Of a stretch of DNA of 64,000 bases, positions 2,588 through 43,618 are shown piece by piece (position 1 is the first letter of the stretch; each line of letters opens with the position of its first letter). A program made the translations under genes and the position numbers. The notes beneath the pieces were generated by a model. It was not told the origin of the DNA. It was given only the letters and a program-made list of their open reading frames with translations, and searched no databases. Source of the stretch: Collinsella sp. An2 (lineage in GTDB: Bacteria > Actinomycetota > Coriobacteriia > Coriobacteriales > Coriobacteriaceae); assembly GCF_002160065.1 (NCBI RefSeq), contig NZ_NFJW01000008.1:1-64000 (forward strand), written 5' to 3'.

Positions 2588-3346
2588 ATGGCTAGGCTCG
2601 AAGTAGAGAACGTATCGGTTGCATTCGATGGGCTCAAGGTGCTCGACGACGTGAGCCTTGTTGTAGATTCCGGCGCGGCTGCCTGCTTGCTCGGCCCGTC
2701 GGGATGCGGAAAGACCACGCTGTTCCATGTGGTCGCAGGGCTCTCGCTGCCGGACACGGGGCGGGTGATGCTTGACGATGCCGATATCACCGGACATCCC
2801 GGAAAGCTCGCCTACATGCTTCAGAAGGACCTGTTGTTGCCGGAGAAGACCATCGTCGACAACGTGTCTCTTCCCCTCATCCTTCGCGGGGTTCCGCGTC
2901 GTGAGGCTCGTGCGAAGGCGCTTGAGTACTTTGATACCTTTGGGCTCGCGGGTACAGCCGATCGCTGGCCTGCCGAGCTCTCGGGAGGCATGCGTCAGCG
3001 CGCCGCGCTTCTGCGCAGCTATCTCTTCTCGCAAAAGTTCATGCTCCTTGACGAGCCGTTCTCGGCGCTTGATGCCTTTACCAAGGCGGATATGCATACC
3101 TGGTTTCTCGACGTCGCCGAACGGTTTGGCACCACGGCGCTCATGGTCACGCACGACATCGACGAGGCCCTTGAGATAGCGGACGTGATCTACGTCATGA
3201 GGGGTGCTCCGCAGGCGGGCGAGCCGACGCGTATTGTGGGTGCAGAGCACATCGTGTGTCCGCGCGGCGAGCGGTCCGGCTACACCCTCACCGAGGAGTT
3301 TCTTGAGCATAAGCGTCGTGTTCTTGACCTGTTGGGCCGCGGATAG
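2588..3346 (+). CDS. thiZ: ABC transporter ATPase (ThiZ-like)
   Basis: A 252-residue ABC ATPase with all key motifs: Walker A GPSGCGKTT (36-44), signature LSGGMRQR (131-138), Walker B FMLLDEP (151-157) and switch His189. It resembles the SsuB/TauB/ThiZ group. It is the last gene of the TPP-controlled operon, 30 bp after the binding-protein gene, with a GGGGAG-type ribosome site. It should power uptake through the upstream permease. A stem-loop that may end the operon lies at 3359-3392. Confidence 0.92.
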   Translation: MARLEVENVSVAFDGLKVLDDVSLVVDSGAAACLLGPSGCGKTTLFHVVAGLSLPDTGRVMLDDADITGHPGKLAYMLQKDLLLPEKTIVDNVSLPLILRGVPRREARAKALEYFDTFGLAGTADRWPAELSGGMRQRAALLRSYLFSQKFMLLDEPFSALDAFTKADMHTWFLDVAERFGTTALMVTHDIDEALEIADVIYVMRGAPQAGEPTRIVGAEHIVCPRGERSGYTLTEEFLEHKRRVLDLLGRG

Positions 3347-3358
3347 CACGACGAAGAC

Positions 3359-3392
3359 GGGCGGCAGGGGATGAGCATGTGCACTGCCGCCC
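3359..3392 (+). terminator. Stem-loop after the thiamine transport operon
   Basis: GGGCGGCAG (3359-3367) pairs perfectly with CTGCCGCCC (3384-3392), followed by a T-rich but interrupted tract (GCCTGTTGTCTGTT). Its place 13 bp after the ATPase stop suggests a weak intrinsic terminator. Confidence 0.6.
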
Positions 3393-3555
3393 GCCTGTTG
3401 TCTGTTAGCTGACTGCTGGCGAGCGGGGATTCATCGTAGCGGGACTGCTGGCCGTAATGGCTGGGACCCATCGCCGCGGCGTCTGCCGGTTGTGGTGGTG
3501 TCGAAGGCCTGTTGGTTGTGGTGGCTGAGGGCCTGCTGCTGCGAGGCTCGCTGCT

Positions 3556-4017
3556 GGTCAAATTGCGCGCCCGCTGGGCAGGGATAAGCGATTGGGACAC
3601 CCACGTGGTCAATTTGTCCGCCTGCTGGGCATTGCGAGGGCGGAAGGGGAGGGCCTCTGGTCGATTTGGTCGACCCCTGGGCATGCATTTCGCGATCGGG
3701 TGACGCTCCAGGTCAATTTCCTCGCCTCCTGGGCAGACATGCTCCCTTCCGAAGGGCGTTTGCGGCTCCAGGGAGCACCGGGGATGCCCAGGCGGCGCCG
3801 GTTTTGACCATCCGCATCCCCACGCGGCATGGCCCATGCCCAGCCCTCGCCCGAATTGACCACACTTGCATCTCCGGTGTCTCTCGAGTACCCAGCGGGC
3901 CACAGTTTTGACCATCGACTCGCCCCGATTACGTCGAGCTTACCCAGCGGGCAGCATTCTTGACCATCAGCTCGTTCTACATGTGCCGAGCAGGCCCAGA
4001 GGGCGAGGAAAATGACC
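3556..4017. repeat. Array A: nine 25-bp bipartite elements at 52-bp period, two opposed arms
   Basis: Four forward units start at 3556, 3607, 3659 and 3711. Five inverted units start at 3785, 3837, 3889, 3941 and 3993. Each is 25 bp long: it opens GGTC (usually GGTCAA), has a variable middle, and closes with TGGG at positions 20-23 (usually CTGGGCA or CTGGGTA). Start-to-start spacing is 51-52 bp within an arm and 74 bp across the turn, close to 5 and 7 helical turns. The 27-bp spacers show no obvious similarity. The rest of the gene-free stretch 3350-4266 holds a 26-bp-spaced pair of GGTTGTGGTGG (3488 and 3514) and two stem-loops. No gene is supported here because the period is not a multiple of three and no ribosome site fits. 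A second array of the same design lies at 43195-43554. Confidence 0.9.
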
Positions 4018-4150
4018 AAGCGGGGTGCAGCACGTTGGCGAGAAGCGCCCTCAAGGAGCTGGCTTTGGAGGCCAGAGATCCCATCGCACGGGGATCCATC
4101 GCAGTGAACCTTATCTCGCTGCTGTGCAGGCAAGATCGGGCGCACGCGAA

Positions 4151-4181
4151 AAGGGGGCTCCGGACGAACCGGAGCCCCCTT
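4151..4181 (-). terminator. Terminator of pta
   Basis: A 13-bp perfect stem, AAGGGGGCTCCGG with CCGGAGCCCCCTT, around a 5-nt loop. Read on the minus strand it ends in CCCCCTTTTC, a short U-tract, and it lies about 85 bp beyond the pta stop. Confidence 0.8.
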
Positions 4182-4266
4182 CTGCACCATAGGGTATGAA
4201 AACCCGCGTGCCGTCTGGCAGCTGTCTTCTGGTAGCTGTCTGGTAGCCATGCAGCCCTGGCGCGCG

Positions 4267-5253
4267 TTACTCGGCCATCTGGGCCTGGACGGCGGTGATG
4301 GCGACGACGCCCACGATGTCGTCGGCAGAGCAGCCGCGGCTGAGGTCGTTCACCGGCTTGGCGATGCCCTGCAGGATGGGGCCGTACGCCTCGGCCTGGC
4401 CGAAACGCTGGACCAGCTTGTAGCCGATGTTGCCGGTCTCGAGGTTCGGGAACACGAGCACGTTGGCATGGCCGGCCACGGTGGACTCGGGAGCCTTCAG
4501 CTTAGCGACTTCGGGCACGATGGCGGCGTCAAGCTGAAGGTCGCCGTCGATGGCGAGCTCGGGAGCCTTGTCCTTGGCGAACGCGGTGGCCTCCTGGACC
4601 TTCTTGGCGGTGTCGCCGCCGGCCGAGCCCATGGTGGAGTAGGAGAGCATGGCGACCTTGGGCTCGACGTCGCCCATGAAGGTCTTGAAGGAGTTAGCAG
4701 AGGCGATGGCGATCTCGGAGAGCTCGTCGGAGGTCGGGTCGATGTTCAGGCCGCAGTCGGCGAACACGAGCGTGCCGTCGGCGCCGAACTCGGGCGTCTT
4801 GGTGCACATGACCATGAAGGCCGAGACGAGCTTGGTGCCCGGGGCGGTCTTCAGGATCTGCAGCGCCGGGCGCAGGGTGTTGGCGGTGGAGTGGCAGGCG
4901 CCGGAGACGAGGCCGTCGGCATCGCCCATCTTGACCATCATGGTGCCGTAGTAGGTGGCGTCCATCATCTGGGCGCGGGCCTGCTCGATGGTCACGCCCT
5001 TCTTGGCGCGCAGCTCGGCGAACTTCTGGGCATAGGCCTCATGCTTGGGAGCGGTCGGCGAGGTGGGGTCGATGACGGTGACACCCTCCACGTCGATCTT
5101 CGCCGGGTCGCCCAGGATCACGAGGTTCGCAAGGCCTTCGGCAACGATCTTCTTCGCCGCCTCGATGGTGCGCGGGTCCTCGCCCTCGGGCAGGACGATG
5201 GTCTTCATGTCCGCCTTTGCGGCAGCCTTCATACGGGATAGGAAATCGCTCAT
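4267..5253 (-). CDS. pta: Phosphate acetyltransferase
   Basis: The 328-residue protein is a single-domain Pta, interconverting acetyl-CoA and acetyl phosphate for acetate fermentation in the cytoplasm. Family features are MKTIVLPEGEDPRTIEAA near the start, GDADGLVSGACHSTANTLRP in the middle, and MLSYSTMGSAGGD with NIGYKLVQRFG towards the end. Length matches the usual 320-340 residues. The start MSDFLSRM is chosen for its GAGGAG ribosome site; longer in-frame starts lack one. Acetate kinase is not adjacent, so it must be encoded elsewhere. The gene is divergent from glf, with AT-rich hexamers between them (TATAAT on the plus strand at 5387-5392 and an opposed TATAAT-like box near 5367-5373). 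Confidence 0.96.
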   Translation of the reverse strand: MSDFLSRMKAAAKADMKTIVLPEGEDPRTIEAAKKIVAEGLANLVILGDPAKIDVEGVTVIDPTSPTAPKHEAYAQKFAELRAKKGVTIEQARAQMMDATYYGTMMVKMGDADGLVSGACHSTANTLRPALQILKTAPGTKLVSAFMVMCTKTPEFGADGTLVFADCGLNIDPTSDELSEIAIASANSFKTFMGDVEPKVAMLSYSTMGSAGGDTAKKVQEATAFAKDKAPELAIDGDLQLDAAIVPEVAKLKAPESTVAGHANVLVFPNLETGNIGYKLVQRFGQAEAYGPILQGIAKPVNDLSRGCSADDIVGVVAITAVQAQMAE

Positions 5254-5452
5254 GGATTCTCCTCGAAATCGGGCTCTCCTCACCGGGCGAAGCGCTTCCA
5301 TACCCTTTGAGCTGGGAGGAAGCTCTGTCGTTGGGGCAGGTTGAGCTTTCCTTGTGTGGCAGGGCATATTATACGTCCGACAGCGCTATAATCCCTCTAA
5401 CAATTGGCGCCATGCGTCCAAAGACGGTTAGTCGAGCCTGCGAGGAGCAGCG

Positions 5453-27753: not shown

Positions 27754-29166
27754 ATGGACTTTACGAAACGAGTCATCTACCTCATTATCGGTCCTGCGCT
27801 GTTCGCAGCATGCGCGTTGGGGCTGTCCGACGTGTTTGGCGGACCCGGCGCCCAGGCAGTGGGCACGTTGCTTTGGATGGTGTTCTGGTGGGTTTCCCGC
27901 CCCGTTGACCTTACGGTCACGGCGTTGCTCCCCATTCCGGTGAACGCCCTGTTCTCCATCGTCCCCATGGCGAACGTCATCTCTCAGTACTTCTCCGAGA
28001 GCATCGTACTTGTTTTCGGATCCTGTCTTCTCACGGTGCCGTGGAAGGCTACCGGCTTTGACCGCCGCGTGGCATACAAGATTCTTGCTATTGTCGGCCC
28101 GTCGCTCACCTCGCAGCTCATCGTGTGGTTTATCGCGAGCATGCTGTTCTCGGCGGTTCTTCCCAACATTGCCGTGGTGTCGCTGTTCTGCCCGCTTGCA
28201 CTCGCCATGTTCCGGGCGGCAGGCTACGAGGGCCTCAAGGACTGCCCCTCGGGTCCGCCCATCTTCTTGGCCATCTGCTGGGGTACGGTGCTCGGCGGCA
28301 TCATCACCCCGCTCGGTGGCGCAATGAATGTTACGGCGATTTCGCTTCTGCAGGAACAACTTGGCATCGAAGTGATGTATTTCGACTGGATTATTCGCTT
28401 CCTGCCCTACACCATTGTGGCTATGCTCGCCTTCTTCGGCATCATGATGTTCATGTTCCGCAACGTCGAGCCGCTCAAGGGTTCCAAGGAGTTCTTCCGC
28501 GAGGGCTACGCGGCCATGGGCAAGATGAAGCCCAACGAGGCCATGGTCGGCATCTTCTTCGCCATCGCATTTTTGGGAGCGCTCTGCCGCCCGCTGTTCG
28601 CAGGCATTCTTCCCGACCTGGTTCCTGCCTACATCTTTGTCGCCATGGGCATGCTGTCGTTTATCTTCACCTACAAGAAGCAGCCGCTTATGGGCTGGGA
28701 TGACGCTCAAAAGGGTGTCATGTGGGGCATGATGTACCTCTTCGCCGGCGGTCTTGCCATCGGTACGCTGATCAACGGCTCCGGCGCGACGAATGTGATC
28801 GCCACCATTCTTCAGGGCTTCTCGCTTGACGGAGGGCTTACCACCATCATTGTCTTCGTCGTGCTGGCCTGCCTTATCGCCGAGCTCACGAGCTCTACGG
28901 TTTCTTCAGCTGTTGCCGTTCCTCTGGTCATCGCGCTTACCACGCAGCTGGGTCTCAACCCCATTCCGTATTGGTGCATCGTTGTTATGGCCTTCGACGC
29001 AGAGTTCCTGCTGCCCGTCTCAATCCGCGCCGTGCCGGCTGGTTACGGTTTGGAGGCTGGCCAGATGCTCAAGTATGGCCTGCCCATGATGCTTGCCCGC
29101 ATGGTCATCGTCATTGTGCTCGGGTATGCGCTCATGCAGTTCTGGCCTGCGTTCTCGGTTCTGTAA
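27754..29166 (+). CDS. DASS (SLC13) family anion transporter
   Basis: The 470-residue membrane protein has 10-12 hydrophobic segments and the duplicated re-entrant loop layout of the divalent anion:sodium symporter family. Helices are seen from LIIGPALFAACALGL onwards, a first half ending with TPLGGAMNVTAISLLQ and a second with AELTSSTVSSAVAVPL. Members carry dicarboxylates, sulfate or sulfonates. A GAAAGGAGAGG ribosome site precedes the ATG. It heads the rightward operon with a CoA-acylating aldehyde dehydrogenase and an acyl-CoA ligase, so an anionic substrate such as sulfoacetate, isethionate or succinate is expected. Confidence 0.87.
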   Translation: MDFTKRVIYLIIGPALFAACALGLSDVFGGPGAQAVGTLLWMVFWWVSRPVDLTVTALLPIPVNALFSIVPMANVISQYFSESIVLVFGSCLLTVPWKATGFDRRVAYKILAIVGPSLTSQLIVWFIASMLFSAVLPNIAVVSLFCPLALAMFRAAGYEGLKDCPSGPPIFLAICWGTVLGGIITPLGGAMNVTAISLLQEQLGIEVMYFDWIIRFLPYTIVAMLAFFGIMMFMFRNVEPLKGSKEFFREGYAAMGKMKPNEAMVGIFFAIAFLGALCRPLFAGILPDLVPAYIFVAMGMLSFIFTYKKQPLMGWDDAQKGVMWGMMYLFAGGLAIGTLINGSGATNVIATILQGFSLDGGLTTIIVFVVLACLIAELTSSTVSSAVAVPLVIALTTQLGLNPIPYWCIVVMAFDAEFLLPVSIRAVPAGYGLEAGQMLKYGLPMMLARMVIVIVLGYALMQFWPAFSVL

Positions 29167-29283
29167 CGGGTCATCAGATCCTCACATCCAATAGCTCTCG
29201 CTTTTCGATGCGCGCGATTGCGCGCATAGGTCTCCACGTTCGCGGATGGCACGTCCATTCGCTTCCAGAAAGGAAACATCGCC

Positions 29284-30657
29284 ATGTCTGACGTTCAGAA
29301 TGCTTCATCTGTAGAAGAACTCGTCGCTCGCTCTCGGGCAGCCCAAAAAGAGATCGAGTTCATGACTCAGGAGCAGGCCGACGCTGCGGCGCGTGCCATC
29401 CTGAAGGTCGTCTACGATAACGCCGAGGAGCTTGGCCCCCAGGCCGCCGTCGAGTCCCGCATGGGCAACAAGACCGACAAGATCGCCAAGTGCCGCAACA
29501 AGGCTTCGCTGCTCTGGCAGTTCTTGAAGGACAAGAAGAGCGTCGGTGTCATCTCCCGCGACGACGAGCATCACATGTATGAGGTCGCTAAGCCCATGGG
29601 CGTCGTTGCCGCCATCATCCCCTCGACCAACCCGGTCGTGACCCCCATGTGCAACGCCGCCTATGCGCTCAAGACCCGCAACTCCGTCATCTTCTCGCCG
29701 CACCCTCGCTGCGTCGAGATCACCAAGAAGTGCGTCCAGCTGTTCCAGGACGAGCTTGAGAAGCTCGGTCTGCCGCGCGACCTTGTGCTCGGTCTTGAGC
29801 AGGTGACCCTGGAGAACTCCGCAGCGCTTATGGCGGCTGCCGACATCGTGGTCGCCACCGGTGGCCCCGCCATGGTGAAGGCCGCCTATTCCTCCGGCAA
29901 GCCGTCCCTGGGCGTGGGTCAGGGCAACGTCCAGTGCATCATCGACGAGGACGTCGACATGTCCGATGCCGTCGAGAAGGTCATCGTGGGCCGCAGCTTC
30001 GATAACGGCCTCATCTGCCTGGGCGAGCAGACCGTGTTCGTCCCGACCTCCACGTACGACGAGTTCGTCGAAGAGGTCGGCAAGCACGGCGCCTGCTACA
30101 TCGACGATCCCGAGTGCGTTGCTAAGATTCGCGAGGGCCTCTTCCCGGGCAATGGCCCGCTGTCCCGCGAGGTCGTGGGCCTCTCCGCGCACGAGGTGGG
30201 CGAGAAGCTGGGCGTCGAGGTTCCCGAGGACACGCGCGTCATCTTCGTGAAGGCCGACGCCGTGGGCTCCGCCGAGCAGCTTTGCCGCGAGAAGCTCTGC
30301 CCGGTTTGCGCCGTGTATCCCTACGATAGTTGGGAACAGGGAGTTTCCTACATGGTCGAGAACCTCGAGTTCGAGGGGAAGGGCCACAGCATCTGCGTGC
30401 ACTCCAACACCCCCGAGCACGTCGAGTATGCCGCCATCCAGTGCTCCGTGTCGCGTTGCGTGGTCAACCAGCCTGCCGGCACCACGGGCGGCGGCAGCCC
30501 CACCAACTGGTTTGGTCCCACCACCACCCTCGGCTGCGGTTCTTGGGGCAACAACAGCTTCAGCGGCAACTTCAGCTACACCCACCTCATGAACATCACG
30601 CGTGTGGGATACCCGCTGGAGGAGTCCTACATGCCCGACCCCTCCAAGGTCTGGTAA
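29284..30657 (+). CDS. CoA-acylating aldehyde dehydrogenase, SauS/SucD type
   Basis: The 457-residue protein lacks the alcohol dehydrogenase half of AdhE and resembles the clostridial succinate-semialdehyde dehydrogenase SucD and the sulfoacetaldehyde dehydrogenase SauS. The catalytic cysteine is C245 in FDNGLICLGEQ; other landmarks are KPMGVVAAIIPSTNPVVTPM and TTTLGCGSWGNNS near the end. It interconverts an acyl-CoA and an aldehyde with NAD(P)H. This subfamily prefers anionic aldehydes, which fits sulfoacetaldehyde or succinate semialdehyde. It precedes the two ligase subunit genes; GAAAGGAAAC lies upstream of the ATG. Direction in the cell is not certain. Confidence 0.88.
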   Translation: MSDVQNASSVEELVARSRAAQKEIEFMTQEQADAAARAILKVVYDNAEELGPQAAVESRMGNKTDKIAKCRNKASLLWQFLKDKKSVGVISRDDEHHMYEVAKPMGVVAAIIPSTNPVVTPMCNAAYALKTRNSVIFSPHPRCVEITKKCVQLFQDELEKLGLPRDLVLGLEQVTLENSAALMAAADIVVATGGPAMVKAAYSSGKPSLGVGQGNVQCIIDEDVDMSDAVEKVIVGRSFDNGLICLGEQTVFVPTSTYDEFVEEVGKHGACYIDDPECVAKIREGLFPGNGPLSREVVGLSAHEVGEKLGVEVPEDTRVIFVKADAVGSAEQLCREKLCPVCAVYPYDSWEQGVSYMVENLEFEGKGHSICVHSNTPEHVEYAAIQCSVSRCVVNQPAGTTGGGSPTNWFGPTTTLGCGSWGNNSFSGNFSYTHLMNITRVGYPLEESYMPDPSKVW

Positions 30658-38566: not shown

Positions 38567-41500
38567 TTGAATTCCCGTTCTGGGGGGGGGGACGCTCATT
38601 CTGAGCATTTGACGGGGGAGCGGGGACGCTGCCGCGCTCACGCAATGTCCGTTCTCGCGTTGGTGCTTGCGGCGCTTTTGGCGTGGTGTGTGGTCCCGGG
38701 TGCGCTGGGCGAATCTGTGGCCCAGGCGGCGACGCTTTCCGAGGTGCTAGGTGCTACTGTTCGAATGGGGGCGCCCGCTGACGGCGATACCGTGCAGGCG
38801 TTGATTGACGCGCTGCCCACGGCGGAGGCCTTGGCGTCGATGTCCCAGGACGAACAATCGGCGGTTTACGACCAGGTGCAGACGACCTACGAGGCCTACA
38901 ACGCCCTTACCGACGAGCAGAAAGAGCAGATCACCGGGACGGAGGTTATCAACGACCTCTTTGCCGTGTTCAATGGCATGACGACGCTGGCGGCAGAAGA
39001 AACTGGCTTTACCTATACCACGGAGGCAAATCAAACTAAAACGACTACTGATGCCATCCTAAGTCTCATTGGTCAGTCTGAACAAAGCGACAAGTTCACA
39101 GTGACACAGGGCAATGGAACAAGTATTACATCAGATCGGGATTTAACGCTTGCTGGTAATATTACAGTAACGGGAGATATATCGACTTCAGGTAGTAAGT
39201 TGACCATTTCAAGTGGAAATTTTGTTGCAGGCGGAAAAATCAGCAGTCAAGTTCAACTTGCTATCTCTGGCGGACATGTGACGGTATCTAGCATTGCCAT
39301 AACTGGAACTTTGAATGGCGGTACTGGATGTACTCTCAATATTACTGGGGGCGTCGTTGACGTAAACTCAATCACACTCCAAAATAGCGGCACTGGTCCC
39401 GCAACTTTTACCGTCAACGGAAACAGCGCAGTGGTATTTGCCAACGAGGTGTCGGTAACTGCAGGCGGAACCGCCTCGAAAAACTATCAAAACGGCGTGG
39501 TATTTGAAGGCACAAGCGGCACCGTCTACGGCAGCGTCACCCTCCCCGACGATGTGACCATCCCGGAGGGTTACACCCTCACCATCCCCAGCGGCGCCAG
39601 CCTGACCGTGCCCAGCGGCACAACGCTGACCAACGAAGGCACCGTTACCGTAGAGGACGGCGGCACCTTCACCAACAGCGGCACCATTGAGGACTATGGG
39701 ACGATCACCGGCACGGTAGGCGGCATTACACCGCAACGCCCGGCCACAGTTTCCGTGACTGTAACCCCCGCCACCGCCACCTACGGCTCCACCGTTACTC
39801 CAATGGCCACGGTCGCAGGCGGCTCCGGGGTGGTCAATGACGGCACCGTGACCTTCTATCAGGGAACGGATACAACCGGCGCCCCGCTGAACAGCACGCC
39901 CGCAAATGTATCCAACGGCACCGCAACGTATGAGCTGGAGTTGACCGGCGCCAACTGGAAACCCGGCACCTACACCATCGCCGCCGTCTACAGCGGCGGC
40001 GCCGGCCTGCTGGGGAACACCGGCACCGCCCCCCTCACCGTGTCCAAGGCGACGACCGACGCAACGCCAGTTGGGCCCATTTCGTCATCCAGTCGATCTG
40101 AAACCGGCATAACGCTGAATACAGTTTCTGATGGCAACATCGGCACCTATGGCGAGATTCAATACGGCTATGTGACAGGTACGGAGACTGAGCCAGGCCA
40201 CTGGCAGGACGGCGCCGCATTTACCAACCTGAACCCCGGCACAGACTACACCTTCTACACCCGATACGCCGGAAATGACTACTATAACCCATCCGATCCC
40301 AGCACTACCGGCCTGACCGTCACCACCCTGCCACAAATTATGACCACCAGCCTGGACGACGGAACGGTGGGCGTGTACTATTCCCAAGCCCTGAAAGCCA
40401 ATGTGGAGACCGGCAAGACCGTGACCTGGGAGCTTGCTACCGGCTCCACGTTGCCCGCCGGATTGACACTGAGCAACGACGGCACCATCACGGGCACGCC
40501 AGAGGGGACGGCTGCCAACCACAATTTCACCGTCCAGGCAACCATACAAGGCGGCGCGCCCGGCAGTGAAAACCCACATGACCTTGCGAGCCTGTCCATC
40601 ACCATCAACGCCGGTACGCCGGACATCACGGCCACTACATACAAGGGCGAGGACCAGACCAGCACATTCACCTACGGCGACACCATCACGGTCACCGGCA
40701 CGATTGCCGCCTCCAGCATGCCGCCAGCGGCCAGCAACGGTATCAACGCCATCACCGAACCGGCGCAGGATCAAGTGGGGCTGTATGTGTCGGGAAATGA
40801 TAGCCTGATTGCCACGGCGAATGTCACCGACGGCAGCTTTACCCTGAAATACAATACCGCTGACAAGGCTATCCCGACAGGCCAGCCGCAGACCCTCACG
40901 GTAAAATACGGCGGCAGCAGCACTCTAAACAGCGGCTCTACCACGGTGCAGATCACCCTGAACAAGAAGGCGGTAACGGCGCAGGTGCAGGGCGCCATTA
41001 CCAAGGTCTACAACGGCAACACCGACGCGGCGGTTTCTCTGGCCGTGGCTGCGGACGATCTTGTAAAGAGCACAGATAACATCATCGTGACTGGCACCGG
41101 TACCTACCAAAGCGCCGGGGTGGGGACAAATATCCCCGTCACCGTTAGCATTACGGGAACCAGCGGCAACGACACGGACTGGTACACGGTCACCGCCCCC
41201 ACCGGCGTTACCGGTTCCATCATGCAGAGCAGTACCGAACTAAAGGTCGAGCCGTCTAGCGCGAGCCTCACCTACGGCGACACCCTCACGCTTACCGTAG
41301 CACCGTGTGCCACAGGGGAGGCACCAGCGCAGAATACACTGCTCGCGGGATTGCACAGGCTCGTTGACCTACTGACGGACGCGAATGGCGACACCGTTGA
41401 GCTCTACAACGGCGATAAGCTCCTTGCCGGTACGAGCAAAAAGAACGCGGACGGCTCCTACACCCTGACGTACAACACGGCGGACAAGGGCCTGTCCGTC

Positions 41501-42961
41501 GGGAACAACACGCTGACCGTCAAGTTCAACGGCGACACCAACATGGTCGCCAGCGAGGCAAGCGTTACCGTGACGTTGAAGCGGAAGGAGGCTACCGCCT
41601 CCGTCTCCGGTACGCCGAGCAAGACGTACGACAGCGCGACGGACGTCACGGTTAGCTTGGCGTTTGATAACGGTGTGCTGGTGGATGGCGATAGCTTTAC
41701 GGGTACCGTTGCCGGCAGCTTCAGCGATGCGAACGCGGGGGAGGGTAAGTCCATCACTCTGGGCACCACCCCCACATGGTCGAATGACACCATTGCCGGG
41801 TTCTATGACATCGCCCTGCCGGGCAACGTCACTGGAAATATCCTCAAGGCGCGTCCCGGGCTGTCGCTCGCCGCAGATCACGGCCAGCTGCTGGGCGGCG
41901 GGCGCGTGGTCCTTACGATCGAGGGGCTTCCCGAGGGCGCGGCGGCAGAAGTCTCGTGCTCCGACTCGTCTATCACGGTGACGGGGGAGGGCTCCTCGTG
42001 GGAGGCCTACCTGCCCAACCGGTCGACGGAATACACCTTCATGGCCACCTCGTCCGAGACCGTCAACTACAGCGCGGGGCAGGCATCCTGTTCCGTGGAT
42101 GTCTCCTACTCGGCCCCGCCGGTGCCGACCTACCCGCCGACGGTCGACGCGGGGGCGGGCGGCACCGTCGAGGTCTCGCCCGCGCGCCCGCATAAGGACC
42201 AGACGGTCACCGTCGAGCCGGTCCCCGACGAGGGGCAGGAGGTCCGCGAGGTCGTGGTGACCGACAAGGACGGGAAGCCCGTCGAGGTCGTCGACAACGG
42301 CGACGGCACGTGGTCGTTCGTCCAGCCCGCGGGCAAGGTGATCATCGAGGTCTCCTTCGGCTGCGACGGCGGGGAGCTCTGCGCGACGCACGGCTTCGTC
42401 GACGTCGACCAGGGCGCGTGGTACCACGACGCAATCGACTGGGCCGTGGATGCCGGCGTTCTCCACGGCTACGACGGCACCGGCCTCATGGGCCCCGACG
42501 ACGTGCTCACCCGCGCCCAGCTGGCCACGATCATCTCCAACGTCGAGGGCGCCGCCCCCGGCAACCCCTCGGCGCTCGACGGCTTCACGGACGCTGACCC
42601 CGACGCCTGGTACGCTGGGACCCTCTCCTGGGCCGTCTCCGAGGGACTCTTCTCCGGCTACGACGGCACCTCCCTCATGGACCCCGACGGCGCCCTCACG
42701 CGCGAGCAAGCCGCAGCGGTGCTCATGCGCTGGGCCGCCCTGCGCGGGGAGGACACGTCGCAGCGCGCTGACCTCTCGGACTACCCGGATGCGACGGACG
42801 TCTCCCCCTGGGCCCGCGAGTGCATGAGCTGGGCGGTGGCGACGGGCGTCGTCTCCGGCGTCGAGCGCGCGGACGGCTCGCCCGCCATCCTCGACCCGGT
42901 GGGCACCGCTACCCGCGCTCAGGCCGCGGCTCTCATGATGCGACTGCTGGCGGGGGAGTAG
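38567..42961 (+). CDS. Large SLH-anchored surface protein with Ig-like repeats
   Basis: The frame runs 1464 residues. A signal-like stretch (SVLALVLAALLAWCVV, ending near VAQA) is followed by a helical segment, a Thr/Gly-rich beta-repeat region, several Ig-like modules (LPAGLTLSNDGTITGTP is typical of a putative-Ig fold), and three SLH repeats at the C-terminus (HGFVDVDQGAWYHDAIDWAV, and copies near 1340 and 1400) that bind cell-wall polymers. It should be a surface adhesin or S-layer-associated protein. No good start lies in frame: 38567 is TTG and ATG 38645 lacks a ribosome site. ATG 38551, with GAGGAAAGG upstream, is one base out of frame across G10. Base composition changes along the gene: AT-rich near 39000-39450, GC-rich after 42100. 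Confidence 0.85.
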   Translation: MNSRSGGGDAHSEHLTGERGRCRAHAMSVLALVLAALLAWCVVPGALGESVAQAATLSEVLGATVRMGAPADGDTVQALIDALPTAEALASMSQDEQSAVYDQVQTTYEAYNALTDEQKEQITGTEVINDLFAVFNGMTTLAAEETGFTYTTEANQTKTTTDAILSLIGQSEQSDKFTVTQGNGTSITSDRDLTLAGNITVTGDISTSGSKLTISSGNFVAGGKISSQVQLAISGGHVTVSSIAITGTLNGGTGCTLNITGGVVDVNSITLQNSGTGPATFTVNGNSAVVFANEVSVTAGGTASKNYQNGVVFEGTSGTVYGSVTLPDDVTIPEGYTLTIPSGASLTVPSGTTLTNEGTVTVEDGGTFTNSGTIEDYGTITGTVGGITPQRPATVSVTVTPATATYGSTVTPMATVAGGSGVVNDGTVTFYQGTDTTGAPLNSTPANVSNGTATYELELTGANWKPGTYTIAAVYSGGAGLLGNTGTAPLTVSKATTDATPVGPISSSSRSETGITLNTVSDGNIGTYGEIQYGYVTGTETEPGHWQDGAAFTNLNPGTDYTFYTRYAGNDYYNPSDPSTTGLTVTTLPQIMTTSLDDGTVGVYYSQALKANVETGKTVTWELATGSTLPAGLTLSNDGTITGTPEGTAANHNFTVQATIQGGAPGSENPHDLASLSITINAGTPDITATTYKGEDQTSTFTYGDTITVTGTIAASSMPPAASNGINAITEPAQDQVGLYVSGNDSLIATANVTDGSFTLKYNTADKAIPTGQPQTLTVKYGGSSTLNSGSTTVQITLNKKAVTAQVQGAITKVYNGNTDAAVSLAVAADDLVKSTDNIIVTGTGTYQSAGVGTNIPVTVSITGTSGNDTDWYTVTAPTGVTGSIMQSSTELKVEPSSASLTYGDTLTLTVAPCATGEAPAQNTLLAGLHRLVDLLTDANGDTVELYNGDKLLAGTSKKNADGSYTLTYNTADKGLSVGNNTLTVKFNGDTNMVASEASVTVTLKRKEATASVSGTPSKTYDSATDVTVSLAFDNGVLVDGDSFTGTVAGSFSDANAGEGKSITLGTTPTWSNDTIAGFYDIALPGNVTGNILKARPGLSLAADHGQLLGGGRVVLTIEGLPEGAAAEVSCSDSSITVTGEGSSWEAYLPNRSTEYTFMATSSETVNYSAGQASCSVDVSYSAPPVPTYPPTVDAGAGGTVEVSPARPHKDQTVTVEPVPDEGQEVREVVVTDKDGKPVEVVDNGDGTWSFVQPAGKVIIEVSFGCDGGELCATHGFVDVDQGAWYHDAIDWAVDAGVLHGYDGTGLMGPDDVLTRAQLATIISNVEGAAPGNPSALDGFTDADPDAWYAGTLSWAVSEGLFSGYDGTSLMDPDGALTREQAAAVLMRWAALRGEDTSQRADLSDYPDATDVSPWARECMSWAVATGVVSGVERADGSPAILDPVGTATRAQAAALMMRLLAGE
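38582..38591 (+). repeat. G10 homopolymer at the 5' end of the surface-protein gene
   Basis: Ten consecutive G follow TTCT. The frame from ATG 38551 (with GAGGAAAGG upstream) reads into a TGA at 38602 with ten G; with nine G it would join the long surface-protein frame and supply a start just before the signal-like stretch. This is the usual design of a slippage-driven phase switch. Sequencing error in a homopolymer is the main alternative. Confidence 0.9.
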
Positions 42962-43028: not shown

Positions 43029-43180
43029 GTCGGAAGTTCGGTGCCCTCGTAGAAAGTTGGGTGCGTCTTCCGTCCAAATAATCCCCGAAAGCGCCTCTCG
43101 TTTGGACGATTCGACTACCAAACTTCCACGGGGCGCCCCCAACTTCCACGGGGCGCCCCCAACTTCCACGGGGCGCCCCG
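43029..43180. repeat. 20-bp repeats in two opposed arms
   Basis: Three identical or near-identical 20-bp units in a row (43121, 43141, 43161) read AACTTCCACGGGGCGCCCC. Two diverged units in the opposite orientation start near 43029 and 43049 (GTCGGAAGTTCGGTGCC and GTAGAAAGTTGGGTGCG). The 20-bp period is close to two helical turns, and the arms face each other like those of array B directly downstream. Confidence 0.75.
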
Positions 43181-43194
43181 CCTCCTTTCTGCAT

Positions 43195-43554
43195 GGTCAA
43201 TACATGCTACCGCTGGGCAGGAACCCTGCGGTGGAGGAGGGGTGGTGGTCAATGTGTGTCTCTCCTGGGCAGTCCAGGAGCTTGTCAAAGGGTCTCGCAG
43301 CATTAAAGTCGATCATTTTTACCCAGGCGATGCGCAATTTGACCAGGAGTGACGCCTCGGGGGGATGTCGTCTGCCCAGAGGTCCCTTCTTTCGACCATC
43401 ATCTCTCCCCGAACGCTTCGCCCGTACCCAAACGGCGAATCTTTTGACCATCGCTGCATCCCTGGGCGCCTTACTTGTGCCCAGGCGGCAGGCCCTTTGA
43501 CCGCGAGCCATCCCCGTGTAGCTCGCCTGTACCCAGGCGGCACCAGTACTGACC
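43195..43554. repeat. Array B: seven 25-bp bipartite elements at 52-bp period, two opposed arms
   Basis: Two forward units start at 43195 and 43247; five inverted units start at 43320, 43373, 43425, 43478 and 43530. Each is 25 bp, with GGTC at one end (mostly GGTCAA) and TGGG at the other (mostly CTGGGCA or CTGGGTA), as in array A. Spacing is 52-53 bp within arms and 73 bp across the turn, nearly the same as array A (74 bp). Inner bases and spacers are not conserved. All 16 units of the two arrays share GGTC at positions 1-4 and TGGG at 20-23. Confidence 0.9.
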
Positions 43555-43618
43555 ATTGACTACCGCAGCGTGTCGGCAACTTGTCTGTATTCCGCGACAC
43601 ACAACCTGCGGTTGCAGC

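Follow-up and report, generated by a model that had tools for sequence, protein, structure and literature searches.

Which agent reads the short inverted repeats that lie between two convergent genes of this contig, and why are they set at such regular distances? The repeats, hereafter array A, fill the convergent gap between an ABC-transporter ATPase gene and the phosphate acetyltransferase (pta) gene; the products of both genes were read from sequence, and both lie outside the system described here. A second array (B) resides in the window, i.e. the whole stretch of DNA analysed, which comprises the first 64,000 positions of the contig in the genome studied, labelled G000. The features, in window positions, are:

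2588..3346, plus strand: gene for the ATPase of an ABC transporter, closing a thiamine-precursor-type operon, to the left of array A
3555..3735, plus strand: array A, left half, four forward 26-bp units (3555-3580, 3606-3631, 3658-3683, 3710-3735; steps of 51, 52 and 52 bp)
3736..3784, no strand: array A, turn, 75 bp start to start, with 49 bp separating the two innermost units
3785..4018, minus strand: array A, right half, five inverted units (3785-3810, 3837-3862, 3889-3914, 3941-3966, 3993-4018; steps of 52 bp)
4267..5256, minus strand: pta gene, to the right of array A and convergent with the ATPase gene
43194..43271, plus strand: array B, left half, two forward units (43194-43219, 43246-43271)
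43272..43319, no strand: array B, turn, 48 bp, 74 bp start to start
43320..43555, minus strand: array B, right half, five inverted units (43320-43345, 43373-43398, 43425-43450, 43478-43503, 43530-43555)

The repeat unit is 26 bp long, TGGTC[A/G]A[T/A][T/A]...CTGGG[C/T]A, with a 23-bp core, GGTC-N15-TGGG. A sequence-only reading of the locus had described nine units with GGTC and TGGG at the two ends, 51-52 bp apart, four facing one way and five inverted, and the positions and steps of array A agree with this; the width then given, 25 bp, falls short by one, and the turn, given as 74 bp, is 75 bp start to start in array A, and 74 or 75 bp across the 15 arrays of the genome. Ends and spacing are indeed kept, as that reading had it, but interiors and spacers are not wholly free to vary. 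Most of the information of the unit resides in the two ends, yet positions 15 (G) and 20 (C) are constrained as well, and the spacers carry a third, weaker box at positions ~34-38 of the 52-bp period, which is strong (GCGTAGCA) in relatives. The pattern of two consecutive units was matched 12 times in the window and never in 100 dinucleotide shuffles. In the whole genome (2.54 Mb, 46 contigs) it was found 27 times in forward and 27 times in reverse orientation, as against 0 matches for the reversed-pattern control, and chance, which the first reading had named as a possible refutation, is therefore excluded. Array A is bordered on both sides by GC-rich hairpins (3355-3396 and 4151-4181); scans for sigma-70 promoters and intrinsic terminators over positions 3300-4300 found none.

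The two-unit matches group into 14 arrays, and the pattern of the turn added a short one on contig C43, which brings the total to 15; no further array emerged when three mismatches were allowed in the pattern search. GGTC points outward, and the turn measures 74 or 75 bp, in 15 of 15 arrays. Steps range from 51 to 53 bp, with the exception of one of 63, and of one of 106 where a unit is skipped in the short array on C43. All arrays are intergenic, and lie beside housekeeping genes such as rplL, ilvC, ruvX, mraZ and yebC (products read from sequence), several of them, array A included, between convergent genes. No shared function was seen among the genes adjoining solo arrays. Three perfect 20-bp tandem copies (AACTTCCACGGGGCGCCCCC) directly precede array B (window 43121-43179). 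Beside three of the 15 arrays lie three large, related surface-protein genes (window 38567-42961; L032:187-4050; L035:4695-8501); the arrays of L032 and L035 are copies of one another, with the surface-protein genes on opposite sides.

The first reading had pointed to the Coriobacteriia as the place to look for further arrays, and they were found there. Across the class, in 396 genomes, this motif is multi-copy in G000, in G024, of the same genus, and in G064 and G279, of another genus of the same family, only; single matches in G221, G250 and G277 were taken as chance. The consensus of G064 and G279 differs (TGGTCACGA...GACCTATGGG) and the 52-bp step is retained, the turn being variable (74, 84, 116, 137/138, 178/179 and 189). 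The metagenome-assembled genome (MAG) G341 has a third motif, a fixed turn of 75 bp, and steps of 63, 73/74, 83/84, 95 and 103. By the Rayleigh statistic, the best period is 10.45 bp for the turns of G064/G279 (scan p = 0.0025) and 10.40 bp for the steps of G341 (scan p below 1 in 2000), and the outer lengths of inverted pairs in other clades fall on the same 10.4-10.5-bp lattice. In orthologous arrays of G000 and G024 the sites keep register, while the spacers are at background identity (in the clearest case 66% vs 40%). As variable steps and turns all obey the lattice, assembly should take place on double-stranded DNA, not on RNA. These spacings, and the register kept in spite of diverged spacers, give strong support to the idea that protein binds on one side of the DNA.

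Two matches outside this set were set aside. The turn pattern was met at five loci of the planctomycete Botrimarina colliarenosi (L059, L062, L064, L066 and L072), a coincidence; these loci are one dispersed MITE-like repeat with long inverted ends, copied several times. A phage origin of the arrays was rejected, the sole match in a viral contig being a chance duplication within a coding region.

The comparison of array neighbourhoods across genomes revealed one recurring unannotated gene, called X hereafter. In G000 it is located as follows:

G000:C34 ~28330-29316 (locus L116:1534-2520): X gene, 329 amino acids, between two other arrays

A gene X lies beside arrays in every array genome (G000, G024, G064, G279 and G341), the motifs being genus- or clade-specific; within the genus, G239 has neither arrays nor a match to the X clade. 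The closest relatives of X (52-60% identity) are found in G024, G064 and G279 only, relatives at 34-43% identity elsewhere in the family, and X-clade proteins also in two genomes each of two other families. More distant relatives abound across the order, in multiple copies; near one of them (L220 of G184, ~3190-3340) a degenerate array was seen whose period, counted by eye, is close to 41-42 bp, or some four turns of the helix. A search of phage records gave no match to X, one of plasmid records a single remote match.

Each clade of X genes has its own motif in the adjoining inverted sites. By one counting rule, an inverted pair lies near 28 of 34 X-clade genes (the other 6 have none at the threshold used), and 12 of 16 more distant relatives of DUF559 type; of 80 random positions, 6 have one. 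Motif similarity decreases from 0.92 to 0.65 to ~0.43 as X identity drops (Mantel p=0.0065, or 0.024 below 80% identity; two of the 23 arm sequences compared, L116 and L175, were entered as consensus, absent letter for letter from their locus). The private pairing of X with its sites and the co-divergence of the two are shown at the level of sequence, as are the phasing, the register kept between species and the copying of blocks. The sites are upstream of X in 20 of the 22 printed cases. G000 has a second X gene, beside htpG (L173:2244-3182; G000:C8), with its own, different pair upstream (TGGTCAATTTACCCACTGAGGTAGTTTTT). Among the ten neighbours scanned of X genes and relatives, no nucleotidyltransferase/AbiEii toxin was found; these neighbours include an ABC transporter, TrmO, HIRAN, CpsB, EamA, PTS and DAHP synthase.

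An AlphaFold2 model of X (20 sequences) consists of two domains (pLDDT 85.7, pTM 0.87). The N-terminal domain, modelled alone (pLDDT 87.4), resembles AbiEi (6y8q; rmsd 3.4 over 123 residues at a Z of 8.3, the second-ranked row having 3.2), the alignment spanning AbiEi residues 64-195 only, with the N-terminal winged helix of AbiEi outside the match. The C-terminal domain resembles the catalytic domain of the homing endonuclease I-Bth0305I (3r3p, Z 9.8) and Vsr (Z 7.6); these fold assignments rest on VIA-align, in which a Z of 8-10 is moderate, and Foldseek alone gave no match for X at E <= 0.001. Residues E193, D230, E241, H248 and D256 are invariant in 20 X sequences, their correspondence to catalytic residues being one of motif and not of superposed side chains. 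Sequence profiles detect MTES_1575, a restriction endonuclease family of Vsr fold (PMC3710099), in 19 of 20 members, and DUF559 in 10. Judged from the models, X is a predicted fusion of an AbiEi C-terminal-like domain to an EDxHD/Vsr-type nuclease domain with conserved active-site residues. Members of the family are annotated as DUF559 at best, and full-text searches of an open-access library turned up no account of this domain combination or of the Coriobacterial repeats.

AbiEi, of type IV toxin-antitoxin systems, and Rv2827c recognise inverted repeats of 23 bp in the promoters of their own genes, the cooperativity being positive or negative, and the gaps between the arms, 3 and 13 bp, differ by 10 bp (PMC7319586), which by analogy would be compatible with the lattice logic of the arrays. 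X shares with them the fold of the C-terminal domain and inverted sites of about 23 bp by its own gene; it differs because matched without the winged helix, fused to a nuclease domain, and found with no nucleotidyltransferase toxin as partner, and because its sites are 50-200 bp apart, many of them elsewhere in the genome. I-Bth0305I dimerises, and has a target of nearly 60 bp (PMC3943268). EDxHD/Vsr-like homing endonucleases of this type share with X the catalytic-domain fold, the E/D/H/D residues, a long target and a multi-domain architecture. In contrast to theirs, the candidate sites of X are complete and not interrupted by the gene, which has them at one or both sides, with others elsewhere in the genome; no intron or intein was seen at X, which is chromosomal and has no match in phage records.

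Solo pairs are scattered over each genome examined. About 5-7 were found in each of G062, G398 and G172 (outer lengths 204-206 or 215-217), about five in each of G195 and G348 (184-218), and eight in G159 (237-239 or 249). Several are at matching places in different species: 3' of a DUF1015 gene, the pairs of G062 and G172 share one motif, and that of G273 resembles the motif beside the X of G273 itself. An inner motif, AATCCTGCGGTTTT, is found in Collinsella pairs (L136-L152), with 22 matches in 17 pairs vs 1 in the flanks; similar strings were seen by eye in pairs of G333 and G159, which have different outer motifs. In G398, a one-contig genome with dnaA at 2.03 Mb and the GC-skew switch at ~0.7 Mb, all seven site pairs map to a single replication arm between these two points (0.985-1.562 Mb), and terminus-macrodomain (matS-like) sites are therefore excluded in this genome.

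The repeats are probably landing pads, set whole helical turns apart, for undescribed nuclease-like DNA-binding proteins of gut Coriobacteriia. We favour, with a probability of roughly 0.6, the reading of the array as a multi-site assembly platform for X, which would act as a sequence-specific DNA-binding protein, regulate its own gene and form complexes elsewhere. Binding by X, looping, autoregulation and any nuclease role are what we infer from the sequences. Each 26-bp asymmetric unit would be bound by X cooperatively, and the copies of X would line up on one face of the helix, given the spacing of the units by whole helical turns. As the halves face inward, both sides could meet across the turn, so that the DNA would be bent or looped; the cooperative sites of AbiEi and Rv2827c, and the I-Bth0305I dimer on its long target, suggest that X may be cooperative and meet itself in this way. 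Sites directly upstream of the X gene, the prevailing arrangement, fit an autoregulation like that of AbiEi. At the arrays dispersed over the genome X would form additional assemblies, of a regulatory, insulating or structural nature; selection would hold these arrays in place, with occasional copying to new intergenic spots, and their conservation argues for a role. Several observations count against X as a regulator. A promoter role makes no sense for arrays between convergent genes, array A included, and an intact nuclease active site is odd in a pure regulator. The missing common function next to solo arrays, the 6 of 34 X-clade genes devoid of a pair, and the winged helix left outside the AbiEi match also speak against the platform.

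The layout of the system is that of REPIN-RAYT, in which REP doublets go with a REP-associated tyrosine transposase (PMC3116915): a nuclease-type gene has inverted-repeat pairs of its own beside it (so for 28 of 34 X-clade genes, compared with 6 of 80 random positions), the pairs are dispersed outside genes, and each protein has its own repeat class, with which it co-diverges. The arrays might accordingly be mobile DNA, miniature elements copied by X or its nuclease activity, with no role but their own persistence, and the phasing might reflect the cutting complex. Two G000 arrays share a block (77% identity, 70% in the spacers) which ends at the outermost shared units, the flanks being 25-40% identical, and the arrays around X are direct duplicates in G000 (83%) and G159 (77%). 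Sharp-edged block copies and duplicated arrays around X show, as far as sequences tell, that arrays also move or get copied; moreover, phased arrays of 6-9 units arising de novo at new sites are hard to imagine. Yet each genome has few copies (about 5-15), sites that share their position between species are in register with spacers at background, and one locus keeps its place while its motif resembles that of another X. No clean empty site, target duplication or copying intermediate was found in the comparisons made; the region 3' of pta differs in synteny in relatives, and the DUF1015 locus has diverged in the array-less G398 and G154. X is absent from phage records, with one remote match among plasmid records. 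We regard mobile DNA with no other role as unlikely, if the strongest of the alternatives. The first reading had also considered decayed copies of a known mobile element, an idea not borne out, as no such element was matched in the literature, block copying of some arrays notwithstanding. We know of none of which the units would be decayed copies.

The system departs from REPIN-RAYT in its parts. X is an AbiEi-like/EDxHD fusion and not a Y1/HUH tyrosine transposase (IS200-like), copies number about 5-15, and tandem arrays occur in some genomes. The arms are whole helical turns apart, with non-complementary spacers, and recognition of duplex DNA is thus likely rather than of hairpins. BIME/REP and MITE repeats are likewise intergenic, inverted and several per genome, but in the arrays the internal sequence is unconserved between most copies, sites and helical phase alone being kept. 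Unlike those of CRISPR arrays, the units are internally diverse and about half of them inverted, and the neighbours are housekeeping genes. A protein with its own dispersed inverted sites is a known kind; the architecture of X and the helical-lattice array fit no named family, since a defining feature tested for each of REPIN-RAYT, AbiE and homing endonucleases is lacking here.

Another protein, for instance a nucleoid-associated one, might read the arrays, X being a frequent neighbour which exploits it or is regulated by it. Solo arrays are far more numerous than X genes, and the second motif AATCCTGCGGTTTT inside Collinsella pairs could serve such a protein, but the motif follows X identity and differs between X paralogues of one genome, e.g. 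the two of G000; private motifs speak against a single housekeeping binder, and we regard this reading as improbable. A structured RNA across the array, the folded RNA of the first reading, is hardly credible, although the inverted halves could in principle pair in a long hairpin of mirrored units, because mirrored interiors are no more complementary than shuffled partners (p=0.21), which makes an RNA stem unlikely, and in addition the Rfam search had no match and the variable steps follow a 10.5-bp lattice not needed by RNA.

A wider proposition is that each AbiEi-EDxHD protein maintains, and copies genome-wide, its own helically phased inverted arrays, the class harbouring private nuclease/site partnerships, a counterpart of REPIN-RAYT that works on duplex DNA and has wholly unrelated parts, which in the genus of G000 would take the form of multi-unit nucleoprotein arrays; we put this forward tentatively, as conceivable rather than likely. 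Experiments on single operators are the usual way to show helical phasing; here, spacings that vary across genomes by whole turns return the 10.4-10.5-bp repeat. Within Coriobacteriia, which are a major gut group, the X family occurs widely and in multiple copies; it displays a predicted nuclease domain fused to an antitoxin-type domain. Each member has a putative recognition sequence of its own at its side, which makes specificity testable over dozens of protein-site pairs, and the whole may be a case in which an arrangement like that of REPIN-RAYT arose independently.
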